Origin: a virus | IMG/VR virus record: IMGVR_UViG_3300032246_000177 | Span: 1 to 58,486 of that record | Length of the DNA stretch: 58,486 bases | Reading direction: 5' to 3' (one strand) | Shown: in pieces, positions 4,341 to 36,899 of the stretch | Layout: each line of letters starts with the position of its first letter | Numbering within the stretch: the stretch's first letter is position 1 | Notes under the pieces: generated by a model | What the model was told of the DNA's origin: nothing | The model's database searches: none | Seen by the model: only the letters and a program-made list of their open reading frames with translations | Translations under genes and position numbers: made by a program

Positions 4341-7300
4341 ATGCCTAGTTTGTTAGAGATCTTAGATGATCCAAACTATGTCAATGCTAATGAAGAAACA
4401 AAGCAGGCTATCTTTAATAAGTACTCTGCTACTGATGATAACTTTGTCAAAGCTAATCCTGCTACACAAGAAGCTATTCGTGTAAAGTTTGGGGTTGCAG
4501 TCCCTTCAGGCGAAGAGGGTGATTCATTAGCCGCATTTGGGCATGGTGTATTGCGTGGGGCATTGCCAGCCGCTGCTGGTATCGTATCTGGTGCCGCTGG
4601 TGCTACTGCTGGTATGGCTGCTGGTCCAGTTGGCGCAGTAGTCGGCGGTCTAGGAGCTGGCTTTGCAGGCTCTGCCGCAACCGCAGCAGCTCAAGAAAAG
4701 TTTCTAGAGGAAAACCCTAAGTTTGCTAAAGCCCTTGGTTTAGATGTGGCTACTGCCGCTAGAGAAGCTAGGGTAAACCCTTATGCATCTATGTCTGGTG
4801 AGATTGCTCCTAACTTATTAGCATTCCGCCCAAGCGGTGCTATGTTTAGAAGTGCCAAAGGACTTGAAGAAGCCGCCGCTAAAAAGGTTATAGCTGAGCG
4901 AGCAGCCGCTATTACAAACTCCGTCATCAATACGGGCGTTGGCGCTGGTATGCAAGTCGGTCAGGAAGCTTTAGGCGAAGAGCCTATTGACTGGAATAAG
5001 GTTGGTATTGCCGCATTAGGTGGTGCGTTAGGACAGAAAGAAACATCGCTTGGTAGAGGTCTTACAACCCTAGGCGAATTGCCAGCCTCTGCAGCTACCA
5101 AGGCGGCTATAAACGCTTTGCGTAGACCTACCCCTGAACCAGCCCCAGAACTCGTCTCTAAAGCCCCAGAAACAACTGCTGGAGGTGTACCCAAGTCTCA
5201 GTCTGTAGATACTGAGGCTATGATGAATCTCATTCCTGAAGCCGAAAGACCAGCAATTATTCCTTCTGAAATAGCAAAGCCAGAAACTCAAATTACACCT
5301 ATTCCAAAAGCTGAAGTTCCAAAGGCTGAATTATCTTTAAAAGATGTTGCTGACCAAGCAAAAGTAATGACTCCAGAAGAGTTTAAAGAGTTTGCTAGCA
5401 AAGGAAAAATTAATACCGCTAAAACATCAGAAAAAAGTTTAGATGATTTTTTAACTGGAAAATCTAAATTTGCAGATTTAGGTGAATTAAATTGGGAAGA
5501 TCCAGCTACTTACGATTTAACAGACCCTTTGGAAAAAGCTGGGTTTAAGATTTTTCAAGACGAAAGATCTGGAGCAACTTATGTTGCCGAGTCGGAAAAA
5601 GATTTAAAAGGAATTTTAAAGGCAGAAAGTGCAATGGAGTACGGTCATGCATATGGCTATGCCCCAGAAGATATTGCCCACTTTTATATGAAAAGACGTG
5701 GTGGCAATTTAGATGCAGCATATCAAGAGTACATTAAAGAAGCCAAGTTAATTGCAGATGAACAGGCAGCTAAAATGGCAGAGTCTGTTGTTCCTGAATC
5801 ACAAGAAGTGGTTAAACCTGCCACAAAAGAAACTTTATCGGAAGAGCAGATTACTCCTGTTTCTGATAAGTTTGCTGCAGAGCATGCAGAGCTTGGTAAA
5901 ACATTGCGAGAATCTCTTGATCAGATGGGGCTTAACCATGTAGGTTTAAGTCTTGAAGACTCTTTACAAGGCTATGTAAACGGCAAGATTCAACCAGTAA
6001 CTGGTAAGTATCTACAGAATATGATTTCCCTTTCTCTGAAAGGTGAAGATATTCATAGCTCTATGAACCATGAAGCTTTACATGCTATGAAAGACAATGG
6101 ATTCTTTACTGATGCAGAATGGGGAATTCTGTCTAGCAAAGCTTTTGATTGGCTTAAAAAGTACAACATTGAAAAATCCTATGGGAATCTTTCAAAAGAA
6201 CTGAAACTTGAAGAAGCTATTGCTAAAGCCTTTGCTGACTATAAAACACAGACTCCACAAGTTAAATCAATTATCTCCAAAGCTATAGCTACGCTTCAGC
6301 GTGTTGGTAATGTATTCCGTGGTCGTGGCTTTAAGAACCATGAAGACATTTTCAAGTCAGCCGCAGAGAATAAGCTGGCTGGTAAGCGTGTTAAACCAGA
6401 AGGTGAAGCTCGTTTTGAGGTAACAGAGAAACCAGTTACTGCTCGTAATGTCCTCAATCAAGAGGTTAGCGCAAGCTTTGTAGCTCCTGAAGTTACTAGA
6501 AAGACTGAGTTCATTCGTAACTTTCAAGATCGACACATTGATCTAAAACGCACTATGGAATCTATCAGAAAGAATATTAAAGATCTTTCTGAAAAGTGGG
6601 ATCCATATCAAAAGCTTGGTTTGTTTAATAGTAAAGTGGCTGAACGCTTTAGATCATTTGCTGATAAAGAAGTTGATCCATTAGTTAAAAAGATGGATAA
6701 GCTTAAGATTACAAACGATGAGCTACATACTTACCTTTTGAATAGACGTGCGGAAAGTTACAACAACCGTATGAATAAACTTAATCCAGACATTGTAGAT
6801 GAGAACGGTAACGTCATCCCTTATAAGCTTAAGGATCGTGCGTCTTCCATACATACTGATGATGCCCGCAAGTATTTTGACGACTTAGATCCTAAGAAGA
6901 AGTCTGCTTTAGAAAACCTAGCTAAAGATGTAGATAACATTATTGATGGTACCCATAAGGTTCTTGTAGAGTCGGGAAAAGAAACTCAAGAAACCATTAA
7001 TGTTTGGAAGAAAACGGATGAAGACTATGCTCCGTTCTTCCGTGAGATGGAAGACAACAGACTATCTACTATTTCTAGAAAAGGTATTGGTACCAAAGGC
7101 TCTGCTTCTAAACGAGCTATGGGTTCTGAAAGAAAAGTTGCGGACATTTTAAACAGCATCATTGGTCAGCGTGAGCAAGCGCTTGAAAATGCTGAGCGTA
7201 TGGTAGTTGGTCGCTCATTGTTTGGTCTGACATTAAAGGCTCCTAATCCAGGTATATGGCTACCTGTTAGCCCATCTGCCATTAAGAACCCAGCGCTTTT

Positions 7301-22926: not shown

Positions 22927-23523
22927 TTATTCCTCAATTAATTGTTGTAATTCATTAGATCTGGATGGGTGTCTCATCTTGCGTAATGCCTTGGCTTCAA
23001 TTTGCCTAATTCTTTCTGCAGTACAACCCATCTCTTGCGCAACATCACGTAAACTTTGCTCGTTGCCGTTAATACCAAACCTTTTTCCAAGAACCATTTG
23101 CTCTGTAAATGTAAGGGTTTTTAAAGTTTTAGCTATAATTGATACTTTTTCTTTTTCAAAAACTTCAGCGTCTGGTTCTTTCATTTCAATTAAATCTATT
23201 GGATCCATTGCCAAAGCTGCAAGAACTTCTGTGCCTGACATTGCACCTTCTGCGCTATTGTTTTTAAGTCTCATACTAAGTTGTTCGTTAGTCCATAGGT
23301 CTGTTGGACAAGCCCCTAATACCTCCATCATTGTTTGCGCAACATCTGTAAATGTTCCATCATTGCGTATGGGGCAAACACGTAAACCAACCAATGCCGT
23401 AACATGGGTGTCTGTTAACCCAGCAGCCCTAGCAAACTCTGCTTGAGATTTATAGCCAGCATCCTCAATTGCTGATAGCAACAAGTTATTTCTAACCGTT
23501 ACTTTTACTCTATACTCTTTCAT
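22927..23523 (-). CDS. HTH and sigma-region-4 regulator
   Basis: 198 residues, first gene of the early operon. Residues ~12-45 (LLLSAIEDAGYKSQAEFARA, GLTDTHVTALVGLR) resemble a Cro/CI-type HTH. Residues ~125-190 (TLTFTEQMVLGKRFG, QSLRDVAQEMGCTAERIRQI EAKALRKMRHPSR split by the motif) match sigma-70 region 4, which contacts the -35 element. There is no region 2, so it cannot melt a promoter as a full sigma factor would. It may act as a regulator or anti-sigma-like competitor. SD GAGGAG precedes the ATG at 23523. Confidence 0.8.
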   Translation of the reverse strand: MKEYRVKVTVRNNLLLSAIEDAGYKSQAEFARAAGLTDTHVTALVGLRVCPIRNDGTFTDVAQTMMEVLGACPTDLWTNEQLSMRLKNNSAEGAMSGTEVLAALAMDPIDLIEMKEPDAEVFEKEKVSIIAKTLKTLTFTEQMVLGKRFGINGNEQSLRDVAQEMGCTAERIRQIEAKALRKMRHPSRSNELQQLIEE

Positions 23524-24088: not shown

Positions 24089-24106
24089 ACTGTATGGATG
24101 TACAGT
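24089..24106. promoter_or_regulatory. LexA/SOS box 1
   Basis: CTGTATGGATGTACAG (24090-24105) fits CTGT-N8-ACAG, the LexA operator of beta- and gammaproteobacteria, and is almost the reverse complement of the E. coli sulA box as I remember it. TTAACA at 24084 could be a -35 for a rightward promoter with the box in its spacer. A terminator begins 30 bp downstream, so any rightward transcript would be very short. Confidence 0.7.
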
Positions 24107-24134
24107 AGTTTTACTTTTCCTCGGTAGGGTGTTT

Positions 24135-24169
24135 GGGGGTGGCATCACGGAGCCACTCCCATTTTTTTT
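24135..24169 (+). terminator. Rho-independent terminator
   Basis: GGGGGTGGC (24135-24143) pairs with GCCACTCCC (24152-24160; one G-T pair), with an 8-nt loop, then A and eight T. It ends the rusA transcript and anything started at the SOS box. Confidence 0.85.
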
Positions 24170-24170
24170 G

Positions 24171-24188
24171 CATCTGGTAAATTTACCA
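24171..24188. promoter_or_regulatory. Palindromic operator, copy 1
   Basis: CATCTGGTAAATTTACCA contains the perfect dyad TGGTAAATTTACCA (24175-24188). It covers the -35 position of the promoter whose -10 is at 24197. The same 18 bases recur at 35018-35035. Confidence 0.65.
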
Positions 24189-24196
24189 CATAGGTG

Positions 24197-24218
24197 TATA
24201 ATTGTTGCATTGCAACAA
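24197..24218 (+). promoter_or_regulatory. Promoter -10 and second operator
   Basis: TATAAT (24197-24202) is a consensus -10 without a good -35. The dyad TTGTTGCA-T-TGCAACAA (24202-24218) covers the start-site region. With the palindrome at 24175 the -10 is flanked by two different operators, so this promoter looks tightly controlled. Confidence 0.6.
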
Positions 24219-24253
24219 AAGTAGCGTATGTTACACAATTTTAGGAGAACTAC

Positions 24254-24379
24254 ATGTTTACATTTGACGATCAGTACAAGAAGGTTGAGCAGTTGGCTGA
24301 GCATTACAAACAAATCAATGATTTTTGGATTCACTCAGTTTTATCAAGCTTAAAAACTTTCTTTAAAGTAGGTAAGTAA
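24254..24379 (+). CDS. 41-residue protein, unknown
   Basis: Starts MFTFDDQYKKVEQLAEHYKQ and continues INDFWIHSVLSSLKTFF, ending KVGK; an amphipathic helical peptide with a faintly phasin-like N-terminus. A strong SD (AGGAG, 6 nt) precedes the ATG, a promoter lies ~50 bp upstream and a terminator follows, so it is a single-gene transcription unit under the two operators. Function unknown. Confidence 0.7.
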   Translation: MFTFDDQYKKVEQLAEHYKQINDFWIHSVLSSLKTFFKVGK

Positions 24380-25986: not shown

Positions 25987-27477
25987 GTGTTACAACTGCG
26001 TGAGCATCAATTAGAAGTAGTGCAAAAAATTAAAGAAGGATTTGAGCAAGGCCATACACGGCAATTGCTATATGCTCCAACAGGATTTGGTAAGACAGAA
26101 GTAGCAATGTCTATCATGAAGACTGTTGCAGACGATTACAAAAAGACAGCGATGGTATTAGACCGCATTGTCTTAATCGACCAAACCAGTATGCGTTTAT
26201 CTAAGTATGGTATTGAGCATGGAGTCATGCAAGCCAAACACTGGAGAGAGCGTCCATACGAAAGAATTCAGATCTGCTCTGCTCAAACGCTAGAGCGTAG
26301 ATCATCCTTCCCCGATATTGAGTTGCTAATCATTGACGAATGCCACATTGCTCGTACCAAGACAACTGAATTCATCAAAAACAATCCGCATATCAAAGTT
26401 ATTGGACTGACTGCAACCCCTTTTACCAAGGGGCTTGGAGACATTTATACCCATGTTGTGGGCGCCACACCTACTGGTGATTTGATTGAAAAGGGTTGGC
26501 TTACTAAACTGCGTGTCTTTATTGCTAAAGAAATTGATATGACAGGCGTATCTAAGGTAGCCGGTGAATGGTCTGCTGGTGATACAACCAAGCGTGGTAT
26601 GCAGATTACAGGCGATATTGTTGACGAATGGGAAAAGAAAACGCACGAAGTATTTGGTGGCCCACGAAAGACGATTGTCTTTTGTTCAGGCGTTGAGCAT
26701 GGGCGAGATCTTGTAGAAGAGTTTGCAAAACATGGGTACAACTTTGTTTCTATTTCTTATAAAGAAGAAGACGAATTTAAACGACAGGCTATTGAAGACT
26801 TTAGTCGCCCAGACACACAAATTCATGGACTGATTGCTACTGACATTTTGACTCGTGGATTTGATATATCCGATGTCATGATTGGTGTATCAGCCCGTCC
26901 ATTTTCTAAGTCTTTGTCATCCCATGTCCAGCAACTTGGGCGTGTAATGCGTCCACACGAAGGCAAAGACTTTGCATTGTGGCTTGATCACTCAGGTAAC
27001 TTTTTGCGTTTCCGTGATGATTGGGATCGTCTTTATACCGAAGGTGTGCAGACTTTAGCAGAAGGCGGTTCAGAGAAAGCTAAACGAGAACCGACAGAGA
27101 AAGAAAAGAAAGAAGCTAAGTGTCCAGTTTGCGTGGAGCTATGGGTATCTAAGACTAATACTTGCCATTCTTGCGGCCATGTGAGACCTAGCAGAAGCAT
27201 GGTTGATAGCGTAGCTGGACAACTAGAAGAACTAGAAGCGGCTAATCGTAAGTTGCATAAATCTAATACTGAATTTTATGCGGAGTTAATTTATTACGGT
27301 CGCCTTAAAGGTTACAAAGAAGGCTGGGCCGCATACAAATACAAAGAAAAGTTTGCAGTCTTTCCAGGTGGATTGAATGTATCACCTAAACCACCAACAC
27401 CCGAGACTTTGCGCTGGATTAAGAGTAGGTTTATTGCATACGGTAAGAGTAAAGCACAACAAGGAGTAACGGCATGA
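25987..27477 (+). CDS. SF2 DNA helicase with zinc-finger-like tail
   Basis: 496 residues from a GTG with SD CAGGAG. Walker A APTGFGKT (K36), DECH box at 117-120, GLTATPF motif III and QQLGRVMRP motif VI define a RecQ/UvsW-like superfamily 2 helicase. After the motor, C379-P-V-C382 and CHSCGH form a zinc-finger-like module, followed by a helical tail. It probably acts in phage replication or recombination, as it lies with methylase and primase genes. Confidence 0.9.
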   Translation: MLQLREHQLEVVQKIKEGFEQGHTRQLLYAPTGFGKTEVAMSIMKTVADDYKKTAMVLDRIVLIDQTSMRLSKYGIEHGVMQAKHWRERPYERIQICSAQTLERRSSFPDIELLIIDECHIARTKTTEFIKNNPHIKVIGLTATPFTKGLGDIYTHVVGATPTGDLIEKGWLTKLRVFIAKEIDMTGVSKVAGEWSAGDTTKRGMQITGDIVDEWEKKTHEVFGGPRKTIVFCSGVEHGRDLVEEFAKHGYNFVSISYKEEDEFKRQAIEDFSRPDTQIHGLIATDILTRGFDISDVMIGVSARPFSKSLSSHVQQLGRVMRPHEGKDFALWLDHSGNFLRFRDDWDRLYTEGVQTLAEGGSEKAKREPTEKEKKEAKCPVCVELWVSKTNTCHSCGHVRPSRSMVDSVAGQLEELEAANRKLHKSNTEFYAELIYYGRLKGYKEGWAAYKYKEKFAVFPGGLNVSPKPPTPETLRWIKSRFIAYGKSKAQQGVTA

Positions 27478-34233: not shown

Positions 34234-34251
34234 ACTGTATACATATACAGT
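34234..34251. promoter_or_regulatory. LexA/SOS box 2, before packaging operon
   Basis: CTGTATACATATACAG (34235-34250) is a near-perfect CTGT-N8-ACAG LexA operator; the dyad extends to ACTGTATA/TATACAGT. A likely promoter overlaps it: TATACA (34238-34243), 16 bp, TATCAT (34260-34265), with the terminase small subunit ATG at 34295. LexA bound here would block the promoter of the packaging and structural genes until DNA damage. Confidence 0.8.
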
Positions 34252-34294
34252 CTTTATGCTATCATTATCCCAATACCAAATAAATACCCAATCA

Positions 34295-35074
34295 ATGAAA
34301 CTTCACAGACTAACGAGAAAACAGATCAGAGAGCAATTGGATCAAGTACCGATCACGGAGATTCTCGGAGTACCGAAACGCAATCTAACCCACAAACAAC
34401 AGGAATTTTGTAAGCATATGGCTAAGGGAGAAACAGGTGCAGAGAGTTATCGTAAGGCTTATGGGAGCGAGGGAGCGAAGGCTAGACCGAAGGTCGCTGG
34501 TAATCGTGCATCTAAGTTGAAAGATCGTGAGGTAATACAGAGGGAGATCGAGGCGATTAGGGTAGCTCTGGAGTTCGAGAAATCACATACCACCCAACAA
34601 TTAAGAGCGTTGGTGGTATCTCAGCTTACAAAAGAGGCGTTAGATCCCGATAACAACGCAAACGCTAGGCTCATCGCTCTGCGTAGCTTGGGAACGGTGG
34701 CTGGTGTCGATGCCTTCCAACACATTAGCCAGTCAACAATCATTAAGGATTCAACAGAGAGCCGAGCCGAACTCATGGACAAACTAAAACAAGTCATGGC
34801 GGACAATATGCGGACGATTGATCATGAGCCTGACGATGCGGACGCTCTGCTCGCTCTGATTGCTGGTGGAAAGCCCGACCCCATCGAAAATTCCGAGTAT
34901 TCCGACCCCACCGCAGCCCCATCCCCGTTTGACCAAAATTCGGGTACCGGTAACTTACATAGTATTCCAGACAAACAATCACAAACAAAACAGGGGCTAC
35001 CCCTCGAAAACGAAAGCCATCTGGTAAATTTACCAGATACAGAAGACACCCCCCTAATGAAATCAAACACTTAG
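34295..35074 (+). CDS. terS: Terminase small subunit
   Basis: 259 residues from the ATG at 34295; the earlier ATG at 34256 lies in the promoter. RKQIREQLDQVPITEILGVP is followed by LTHKQQEFCKHMAKGETGAE, SYRKAYGSEGAKA and ASKLKDREVIQREIEAI, the HTH and helical hairpin of small terminases. The protein binds phage DNA at the packaging site and recruits the large subunit. The C-terminus is unstructured and acidic. It contains the palindrome at 35019-35038 in its last codons. Confidence 0.8.
   Translation: MKLHRLTRKQIREQLDQVPITEILGVPKRNLTHKQQEFCKHMAKGETGAESYRKAYGSEGAKARPKVAGNRASKLKDREVIQREIEAIRVALEFEKSHTTQQLRALVVSQLTKEALDPDNNANARLIALRSLGTVAGVDAFQHISQSTIIKDSTESRAELMDKLKQVMADNMRTIDHEPDDADALLALIAGGKPDPIENSEYSDPTAAPSPFDQNSGTGNLHSIPDKQSQTKQGLPLENESHLVNLPDTEDTPLMKSNT
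35019..35038. promoter_or_regulatory. Palindromic operator, copy 2
   Basis: ATCTGGTAAATTTACCAGAT is a perfect 20-bp palindrome, inside the 3' end of the terminase small subunit gene and ~150 bp before the LexA-like gene. It shares 18 bases with the site at 24171. A regulator made here could bind both. Confidence 0.7.
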
Positions 35075-35087
35075 GGGTGGGGGGTAT

Positions 35088-35192: not shown

Positions 35193-35415
35193 GCGCCAGG
35201 CTATCGTTTACGAGATGATTGACGAATGGTGGAAGAAGTTCGGCTATGCGCCCTCTATAGATGATGTCATGAACCAAACCAACTTTAAGGGGCGGGGGCA
35301 TACGCACAGGATTATGAAGCAACTATGTGATTTAGGTCTCTGTAAAAGATTACCCAATCGGGCGAGAAGTATTAGACCTACCTATATGCGTGTCCATAAG
35401 TTAGAACGAGAATGA
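35185..35415 (+). CDS. LexA DNA-binding-domain protein without peptidase
   Basis: 76 residues. MTERQAIVYEMIDEWWKKFG, then YAPSIDDVMNQTNFKGRGHT, HRIMKQLCDLGLCKRLP and NRARSIRPTY follow the LexA N-terminal winged helix nearly residue for residue, including the RxxSIR turn after the wing. The Ser/Lys autoprotease domain is absent, so it cannot self-cleave in the SOS response. It may bind SOS boxes or the palindromes. Located between the terminase subunit genes; overlaps TerL by ATGA. Confidence 0.85.
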   Translation: MTERQAIVYEMIDEWWKKFGYAPSIDDVMNQTNFKGRGHTHRIMKQLCDLGLCKRLPNRARSIRPTYMRVHKLERE

Positions 35416-36899
35416 ATATAGAAGAGATTATCAAAGGTTTACCGCCAGAAGAACAAGATTCTTTGTTCTCTATGGCGAAAGACTATATGGACTCTTTAGG
35501 TCGGGAAAAGGCTCAAACGGACTTTATGGAGTTTGTCCGTCAGATGTGGCCCGGATTTGTAAACGGCCCTCACCATAAGATTATGGCTAAAAAGTTCCAA
35601 GAGATAGCCGAAGGCAAATGTAAAAGACTTATCATTAATATGCCTCCCCGCCATACCAAAAGTGAGTTTGCATCGTATATGCTTCCCGCATGGTTCTTAG
35701 GAAAGTATCCTAGTAAGAAGATTATTCAATGTTCTAATACCGCAGAATTAGCGGTCGGTTTTGGTAGGAAAGTGAGGAACCTAGTTGGTAGCGATGCATA
35801 CTCAAAGATATTCCCGAATGTCGCTCTTAAGTCTGATAGTAAGGCTGCTGGTCGTTGGGCTACTAATGCCGATGGCGATTACTTCGCTATTGGTGTTGGC
35901 GGTACTGTTACAGGTAAAGGAGCTGATCTGCTCATTATTGACGATCCGCACTCGGAGCAAGAGGCGGCGATAGCAGCCACTAACCCAGAAGTCTACGATA
36001 AGGTTTATGAATGGTACTCATCAGGTCCTCGTCAACGACTTCAACCAGGTGGTGCCATTATTGTCGTTATGACCCGCTGGAGTCTAAGAGACTTAACGGG
36101 CAAGATTTTAAAGTCTTCCATTGAGCGTGACGGGGATATGTGGGATGTGATTAACTTCCCCGCCATTTTGCCAAATGAAGAACCTTTGTGGCCGGCATTC
36201 TGGCCGTTAAAAGAACTTCTTGCCTTAAAAGAAGAACTTCCTGTTTCTAAATGGAATGCCCAGTATCAGCAAAGCCCTACGAGTGAAGAGGGCGCCCTTG
36301 TTAAAAGAGAGTGGTGGAAGCTTTGGGAGTCAGATCGTCCTCCGCAATGTCAATTCATTATCCAATCTTGGGATACCGCCTTTACCAAGAACGAACGGTC
36401 AGACTACTCAGCCTGTACGACTTGGGGTGTCTTTTACAAGGACGAAGATGAAATGCAACCCAATATCATCTTGCTTGATGCTTTTAAAGAAAGACTTGAG
36501 TTTCCAGAATTAAAGGAGCGGGCGATCAGAATGTATAAAGAATGGGAACCCGATGCGTTTATCGTAGAGGCTAAGGCGTCTGGTGCCCCGCTTATATTTG
36601 AATTGCGGCGCATGGGTATCCCTGTATCAGAGTTTACACCTACTCGTGGCAATGATAAGATAGCTCGATTAAATTCGGTAACAGATTTGTTTGCATCCGG
36701 CAAAGTGTGGGCGCCGGGAACAAGATGGGCTGATGAAGTGATGGAAGAGATGGCGGCATTCCCAAACTCGGATCACGATGACTTAGTGGATAGCTCCACA
36801 CAAGCATTGATTCGTTTTCGGAAAGGCGGTTTTATTTCTCTACCTTCAGATGACCAAGACGAACCACAATTTTACAGACGGAAGGCTGCGTACTACTAA
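35412..36899 (+). CDS. terL: Terminase large subunit
   Basis: 495 residues. Walker A MPPRHTKSE (78-85), Walker B LLIIDDPH (D177-D178), the coupling TRWSLRD, and the nuclease D321 in QSWDTAF plus HDDLVDSS near 467 define a phage packaging ATPase-nuclease. It pumps DNA into the prohead and cuts it. Start fixed by ATGA overlap. Headful or site-specific cutting cannot be told. Confidence 0.95.
   Translation: MNIEEIIKGLPPEEQDSLFSMAKDYMDSLGREKAQTDFMEFVRQMWPGFVNGPHHKIMAKKFQEIAEGKCKRLIINMPPRHTKSEFASYMLPAWFLGKYPSKKIIQCSNTAELAVGFGRKVRNLVGSDAYSKIFPNVALKSDSKAAGRWATNADGDYFAIGVGGTVTGKGADLLIIDDPHSEQEAAIAATNPEVYDKVYEWYSSGPRQRLQPGGAIIVVMTRWSLRDLTGKILKSSIERDGDMWDVINFPAILPNEEPLWPAFWPLKELLALKEELPVSKWNAQYQQSPTSEEGALVKREWWKLWESDRPPQCQFIIQSWDTAFTKNERSDYSACTTWGVFYKDEDEMQPNIILLDAFKERLEFPELKERAIRMYKEWEPDAFIVEAKASGAPLIFELRRMGIPVSEFTPTRGNDKIARLNSVTDLFASGKVWAPGTRWADEVMEEMAAFPNSDHDDLVDSSTQALIRFRKGGFISLPSDDQDEPQFYRRKAAYY

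Follow-up and report, generated by a model that had tools for sequence, protein, structure and literature searches.

The window is the whole 58,486-nucleotide stretch of viral DNA that we analyzed (IMG/VR record IMGVR_UViG_3300032246_000177). Two of its operons are considered here, one with a parB-like gene and a helicase gene and the other with the terminase genes and a LexA-like gene (Table 1). Of all perfect palindromes in the window, the longest (20 bp; the runner-up has 16 bp) lies within the final 56 bp of terS and about 147 bp 5' of the LexA-like open reading frame (ORF), where the original prediction had placed it. That prediction also described 18 bases of the palindrome recurring at 24171-24188. 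There is a distant copy over a -35 position, but the count of 18 took in one shared C that precedes the palindrome, and the true copy spans 24172-24191 with one mismatch. We refer to the terS copy as the T-site and to the distant copy as the U-site. The U-site comes directly after a terminator and stops 5 bp short of a TATAAT box, and it therefore spans the -35 position in the promoter of the parB-like operon.

Table 1. Coordinates of the palindrome copies and of the genes and elements around them
Feature	Position	Strand	Remarks
LexA box CTGT-N8-ACAG	24090..24105	.	66 bp before the U-site
Intrinsic terminator	24134..24169	+	24134-24161 plus T-run, just upstream of the U-site
U-site	24172..24191	.	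ATCTGGTAAATTTACCACAT; 1 mismatch relative to the T-site; over the -35 position, promoter of the parB-like operon
-10-like box TATAAT	24197..24202	+	Read from the sequence, 5 bp 3' of the U-site; absent from the sigma-70 scan list
Small ORF	24254..24379	+	First gene past the U-site promoter
ParB-like protein, 266 aa	25011..25811	+	PHROG 1033, E 6e-23; AF2 model; covariation; proposed binder
Helicase gene	25987..27477	+	Downstream of the parB-like gene
LexA box CTGT-N8-ACAG	34235..34250	.	Upstream of terS
Terminase small subunit terS ORF	34256..35074	+	PHROG 51, E 7e-8; a later ATG is possible as start
T-site	35019..35038	.	Perfect 20-bp palindrome ATCTGGTAAATTTACCAGAT at the end of terS; candidate target (parS/O_B-like) for the ParB-like protein
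LexA DNA-binding-domain-like protein, 76 aa	35185..35415	+	Pfam PF01726, E 4e-7; rival binder, disfavoured
Terminase large subunit terL	35412..36899	+	

Matches to the palindrome with three or fewer mismatches were expected 0.01 times in shuffled sequence, and none of 100 shuffles contained two, which bears out the earlier claim that chance is an improbable source of the pair. Both copies are also present in close relatives. Among ten near-relative sequences (6 distinct; nine of the ten were retrieved via protein only), the 20 bp of the palindrome were unchanged, compared with 58 variable positions in the 150 bp upstream.

The palindrome has the form CTGG-N8-CCAG and is not the CTGT-N8-ACAG box of a host LexA operator. 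The window has only two such boxes; they stand apart from the palindromes, at 24090 and 34235, and belong to the same two operons. Around parB and terS of related phages, we counted 18 LexA boxes where 4.1 were expected (for example, in L187, L196, L195, L190, L206, L212, and G001). The presence of LexA boxes at both operons means that both may also be under the host SOS response.

The AF2 model of the ParB-like protein (pLDDT 86) predicts a ParB_N fold at about residues 1 to 85, helix-turn-helix (HTH) helices at residues 97 to 139, and a C-terminal coiled coil at residues 174 to 265. Over residues 1 to 140, the nearest solved folds were KorB (Z 12.4), ParB, and Noc, with Z scores ranging from 8.7 to 12.4. 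The Pfam ParB_N match (E 5e-5) was under the gathering score. The predicted helices and coiled coil supply a central HTH and a C-terminal dimerisation segment for a predicted dimer. The protein also has the GxxR P-motif, so named for NTP binding (PMC12704722), with G53 and R56 invariant across 49 sequences, and is predicted to bind nucleotide. A ParA-type ATPase (AAA_31, PF13614) was not found in 22 related records, some of which may be incomplete (controls were positive in 14 of 14), and a ParABS partition system is disfavoured for this reason. We also found no parS-like site with three or fewer mismatches in the window. Phage GenBank records gave no match to the LexA-like protein and only distant matches to the ParB-like protein, so that no cultured host was identified for this phage family. 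A Betaproteobacteria-1 RNA (Rfam RF02932; 24605-24725, plus strand; 88.5 bits) lies 3' of the U-site and 5' of the parB-like gene; it is strongly conserved in close relatives and hints at a betaproteobacterial host.

The original prediction had proposed a search of related phages for conserved copies, and this search showed that copies are kept at both positions. We retrieved the loci used in our tests by protein and not by palindrome. Distant relatives do not have the palindrome sequence of the window, and most of them have an inverted repeat of another sequence in the corresponding positions. Across dozens of related phages, the sequence of the repeat is different and specific to the lineage, for example, GGGTAACACCTGTTACCC in G018, ACTTTAACATTTGTTAAAGT in G014, TGGTAACGTTACCA in G025, L233, L264, and others, TGGCAACGTTGCCA in L212 and L260, CATGAAAG-N2-CTTTCATG in L187, and GTGGAAC-N2-GTTCCAC in G004 and G005. 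On the parB side, the repeat may lie at a promoter some 0.5 to 1.3 kb ahead of the gene, overlap the start region, fall within the coding sequence, or follow directly after it. In G004, G005, G019, L187, and L196, as in the window, it precedes or overlaps the parB start; other lineages have it within or behind parB. On the terminase side, we examined 23 lineages, and in each of them the center of the repeat fell between -194 and +340 bp relative to the terS stop codon. In 11 of 44 phages (9 lineages), one and the same 7-nt half-site repeat occurred, without mismatch, both around parB and in the terS-terL region of the genome; among cross-genome pairs, 25 of 1,892 shared a half-site, all of them within the TGGTAA class (binomial, ~3e-9). 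In 16 of the 44 phages with a ParB-like gene, the automatic search found no perfect repeat with 7-bp arms between -1100 and -100 of terL; the same -100 to -1100 rule took an unrelated repeat in G025, whose true site is further out. Half-sites are spaced 0 to 4 apart in different phages, and a single genome shows a 1-bp difference; such variation would be unusual if the binder were a rigid dimer, and it counts against a ParB-like binder.

We compared the sites with the recognition helix of the ParB-like proteins. Site distance correlated with ParB recognition-helix distance in a Mantel test of hand-picked sites chosen by eye (r 0.58, p 0.0002) and in the same test of automatically chosen sites from 25 dereplicated phages (r 0.50, p 0.0002). 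The site flanks of L264 and L259 are inexact in the hand-picked set and are not used in the automatic set. When the ParB N-domain and the LexA-like protein were accounted for, the partial r was 0.55 for the hand-picked sites and 0.46 for the automatic sites (p 0.0002). In all 12 cases with His at position 3 of the ParB helix, the site had a TGG arm, and phages lacking this His lacked TGG in 10 of 10, with the sites again chosen by eye and tabulated by hand. These tests are not fully independent, because the phages are related.

In two sister clades, all seven contigs carried the bacterial parS TGTTTCACGTGAAACA between terS and terL, exact in L070, L075, L294, L295, L296, and L299 and with one change in L068. 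These seven contigs were retrieved via the LexA-like protein only, the gene for which is retained in the parS-clade phages. The parB position was visible in three records (G013, G016, and G070), and in each the gene encoded only a coiled coil of about 93 to 110 aa, with neither ParB_N nor HTH. We had considered G013 and G016 as wholly parB-less, which was wrong, since this coiled-coil remnant remains. The G013 and G016 genes differ by 19 synonymous and 8 nonsynonymous codon changes; with a dN of 0.041 against a dS of 0.55, the short gene looks kept under purifying selection and not decaying. No parS-like match (three or fewer mismatches) occurred near the parB operon of G016. The records may be incomplete, and a separate ParB could therefore lie off-contig. 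As judged from these sequences, both clades keep the terS-terL site in the form of parS and lack a DNA-binding ParB, which suggests that the loading of a ParB-family protein at terS-terL is what matters. A stronger version, to which we give nearly even chances, is that a ParB-family clamp is obligatory at terS-terL: most members of the family would supply both the ParB-like protein and a private site for it, and those that lost the DNA-binding part would borrow the host ParB via the chromosomal parS and keep the coiled coil. As a separate observation, a parS-type 19-mer, GTGTTTCANGTGAAACAYC, occurs in at least 120 viral-contig stretches (L348-L427), some of which may be prophage flanks, compared with a rough chance estimate of a few.

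These computations make it very probable that the palindrome is what the ParB-like protein of this phage recognises, and they give good support to the pairing of cognate site and protein. The original prediction had looked for the binder among the proteins from 35185, 22927, 27474, 12599, and 11683, which is probably wrong; the best candidate is the ParB-like ORF, which was not on that list. We also consider likely the full explanation, in which this protein uses a parS/O_B-like site to repress its own operon at 24172 and to load at terS-terL. We infer that the protein would bind its site physically, dimerising through the C-terminal coiled coil and reading the DNA with the HTH. By sitting on the -35 region at 24172, the protein would dampen expression of the operon that encodes it. 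Its place of loading at 35019 would be the junction of terS and terL, where it would control or mark the packaging genes, and loading could resemble that of KorB at O_B, with sliding to silence nearby promoters. As to mechanism, the protein most likely acts as a KorB-like autoregulator or clamp whose loading points are its own promoter and the packaging genes. The terS-terL role could be late-gene silencing, marking of DNA for packaging, or an aid to maintenance. The earlier proposal of an operator joining two operons holds in that a regulator site links both, with both positions conserved in relatives. However, "operator" may be too narrow a term, because, like parS or O_B, the site may occupy a promoter or the start region, fall within parB or directly after it, or fall within or after terS. 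By analogy, this positional freedom resembles parS/O_B more than a classical operator.

A second explanation has the same binder and a different purpose. The sites would be a centromere or packaging mark, where ParB-family clamps load at terS-terL to position or segregate the DNA or to start packaging, with repression of the parB operon secondary. We regard this as a possible but less probable account. It fits with the sites adjoining terminase genes, with their ability to fall inside or behind genes, and with the terS-terL site being the one retained, as bacterial parS, after loss of the phage DNA-binding ParB. It fits poorly with the failure to find a ParA-type ATPase in the records searched and with the placement of the second copy in several lineages, where the parB operon has it at a promoter or start codon.

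It is improbable that the LexA-like protein uses the palindrome as its operator, autoregulating itself and linking the two operons. The CTGG-N8-CCAG form of the palindrome shares the geometry of the Escherichia coli LexA box, the T-site lies shortly 5' of the LexA-like gene, and the LexA-like protein was present in 44 of 44 phages. However, the raw correlation of this protein with the site (r ~0.21) fell to a partial r of ~0 once the ParB helix was accounted for (p 0.23 to 0.63), and its sequence then no longer predicted the palindrome. The helix RGNVH is identical in L187, L212, L214, and G014, yet these phages have four quite different palindromes, each fitting the ParB helix class. In the parS clades, the LexA-like gene is kept and the site is bacterial parS. 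Moreover, extra genes can part the site from the LexA-like gene, while the site stays near the terS stop.

Slightly less credible still is that the inverted repeats work as RNA or cruciform hairpins with compensatory arm changes. The arms do change and stay symmetric, with loops of 0 to 4, but copies within a genome mostly have the same arm sequence, this sequence tracks the DNA-binding helix, and an RNA hairpin gives no account of the replacement by bacterial parS. Chance or merely shared ancestry of the flanking DNA is the least credible explanation and very improbable. The flanks at 24172 are common to close relatives, but the shuffles did not reproduce the pair, and in distant relatives both places are occupied by other sequences.

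ParB-fold regulators with palindromic sites (KorB, Noc, and StrR) are already known. KorB of plasmid RK2 resembles the phage protein as a ParB-fold gene regulator and is its best structural match, and its O_B sites are 4 to 10 bp or 45 to over 1,000 bp upstream of target promoters (PMC11790492). Its site sequences are different, no KorA partner was identified for the phage protein, and the CTP-dependent clamp is a feature of KorB that would apply here by analogy. In chromosomal ParB and Noc, binding specificity is set by the HTH (PMC7383237). ParB-parS and Noc-NBS share with the phage system the domain order (ParB_N, HTH, and C-terminal dimerisation), 16-bp palindromes, and canonical parS in the two sister clades, and they differ from it in that no ParA was found in the phages, the ParB_N match of the window protein is below the Pfam cutoff, and site spacing is 0 to 4. 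StrR-type activators, which the window protein presumably resembles in sequence, are likewise ParB-family regulators with inverted-repeat sites. Their sites, GTTCGActG(N)11CagTcGAAc (PMC8306873), differ in having half-sites 11 bp apart.

The window protein matches "ParB-like partition protein" (PHROG 1033) and has no ParA found with it, like orphan phage ParB-like proteins. Such orphan proteins are common in phages. They have been surveyed (PMC12704722); the literature that we searched described no binding sites for them and contained no report of the sites of this family, their re-spelling by lineage, or their replacement by bacterial parS. Probable DNA sites of orphan ParB-like proteins are now located in many lineages, together with a recognition code and a natural parS swap, and therefore roles in binding, regulation, and packaging are directly testable.

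We made several further observations in the window. The protein encoded at 22927-23523 (minus strand) combines sigma-70 region 4 (Pfam E 1e-13) with an N-terminal HTH-like stretch. A second palindrome, TTGTTGCATTGCAACAA, lies at 24202-24219, immediately 3' of the -10 box, and its core is kept in close relatives. Palindromes of the sequence AGGGTWWACCCT are scattered at 4771, 9808, 19062, and 24065 and in several relatives, and they interleave with ParB-type sites in L057, L066, and L085. At 35049-35087, and at the same place in nearly all relatives, a C-run in terS precedes GGGGTGGGGGGTAT, which coincides with the terS stop or follows it closely. Together, these could form a hairpin that hides the ribosome site of the next gene until terS is translated, or they could be a packaging element.
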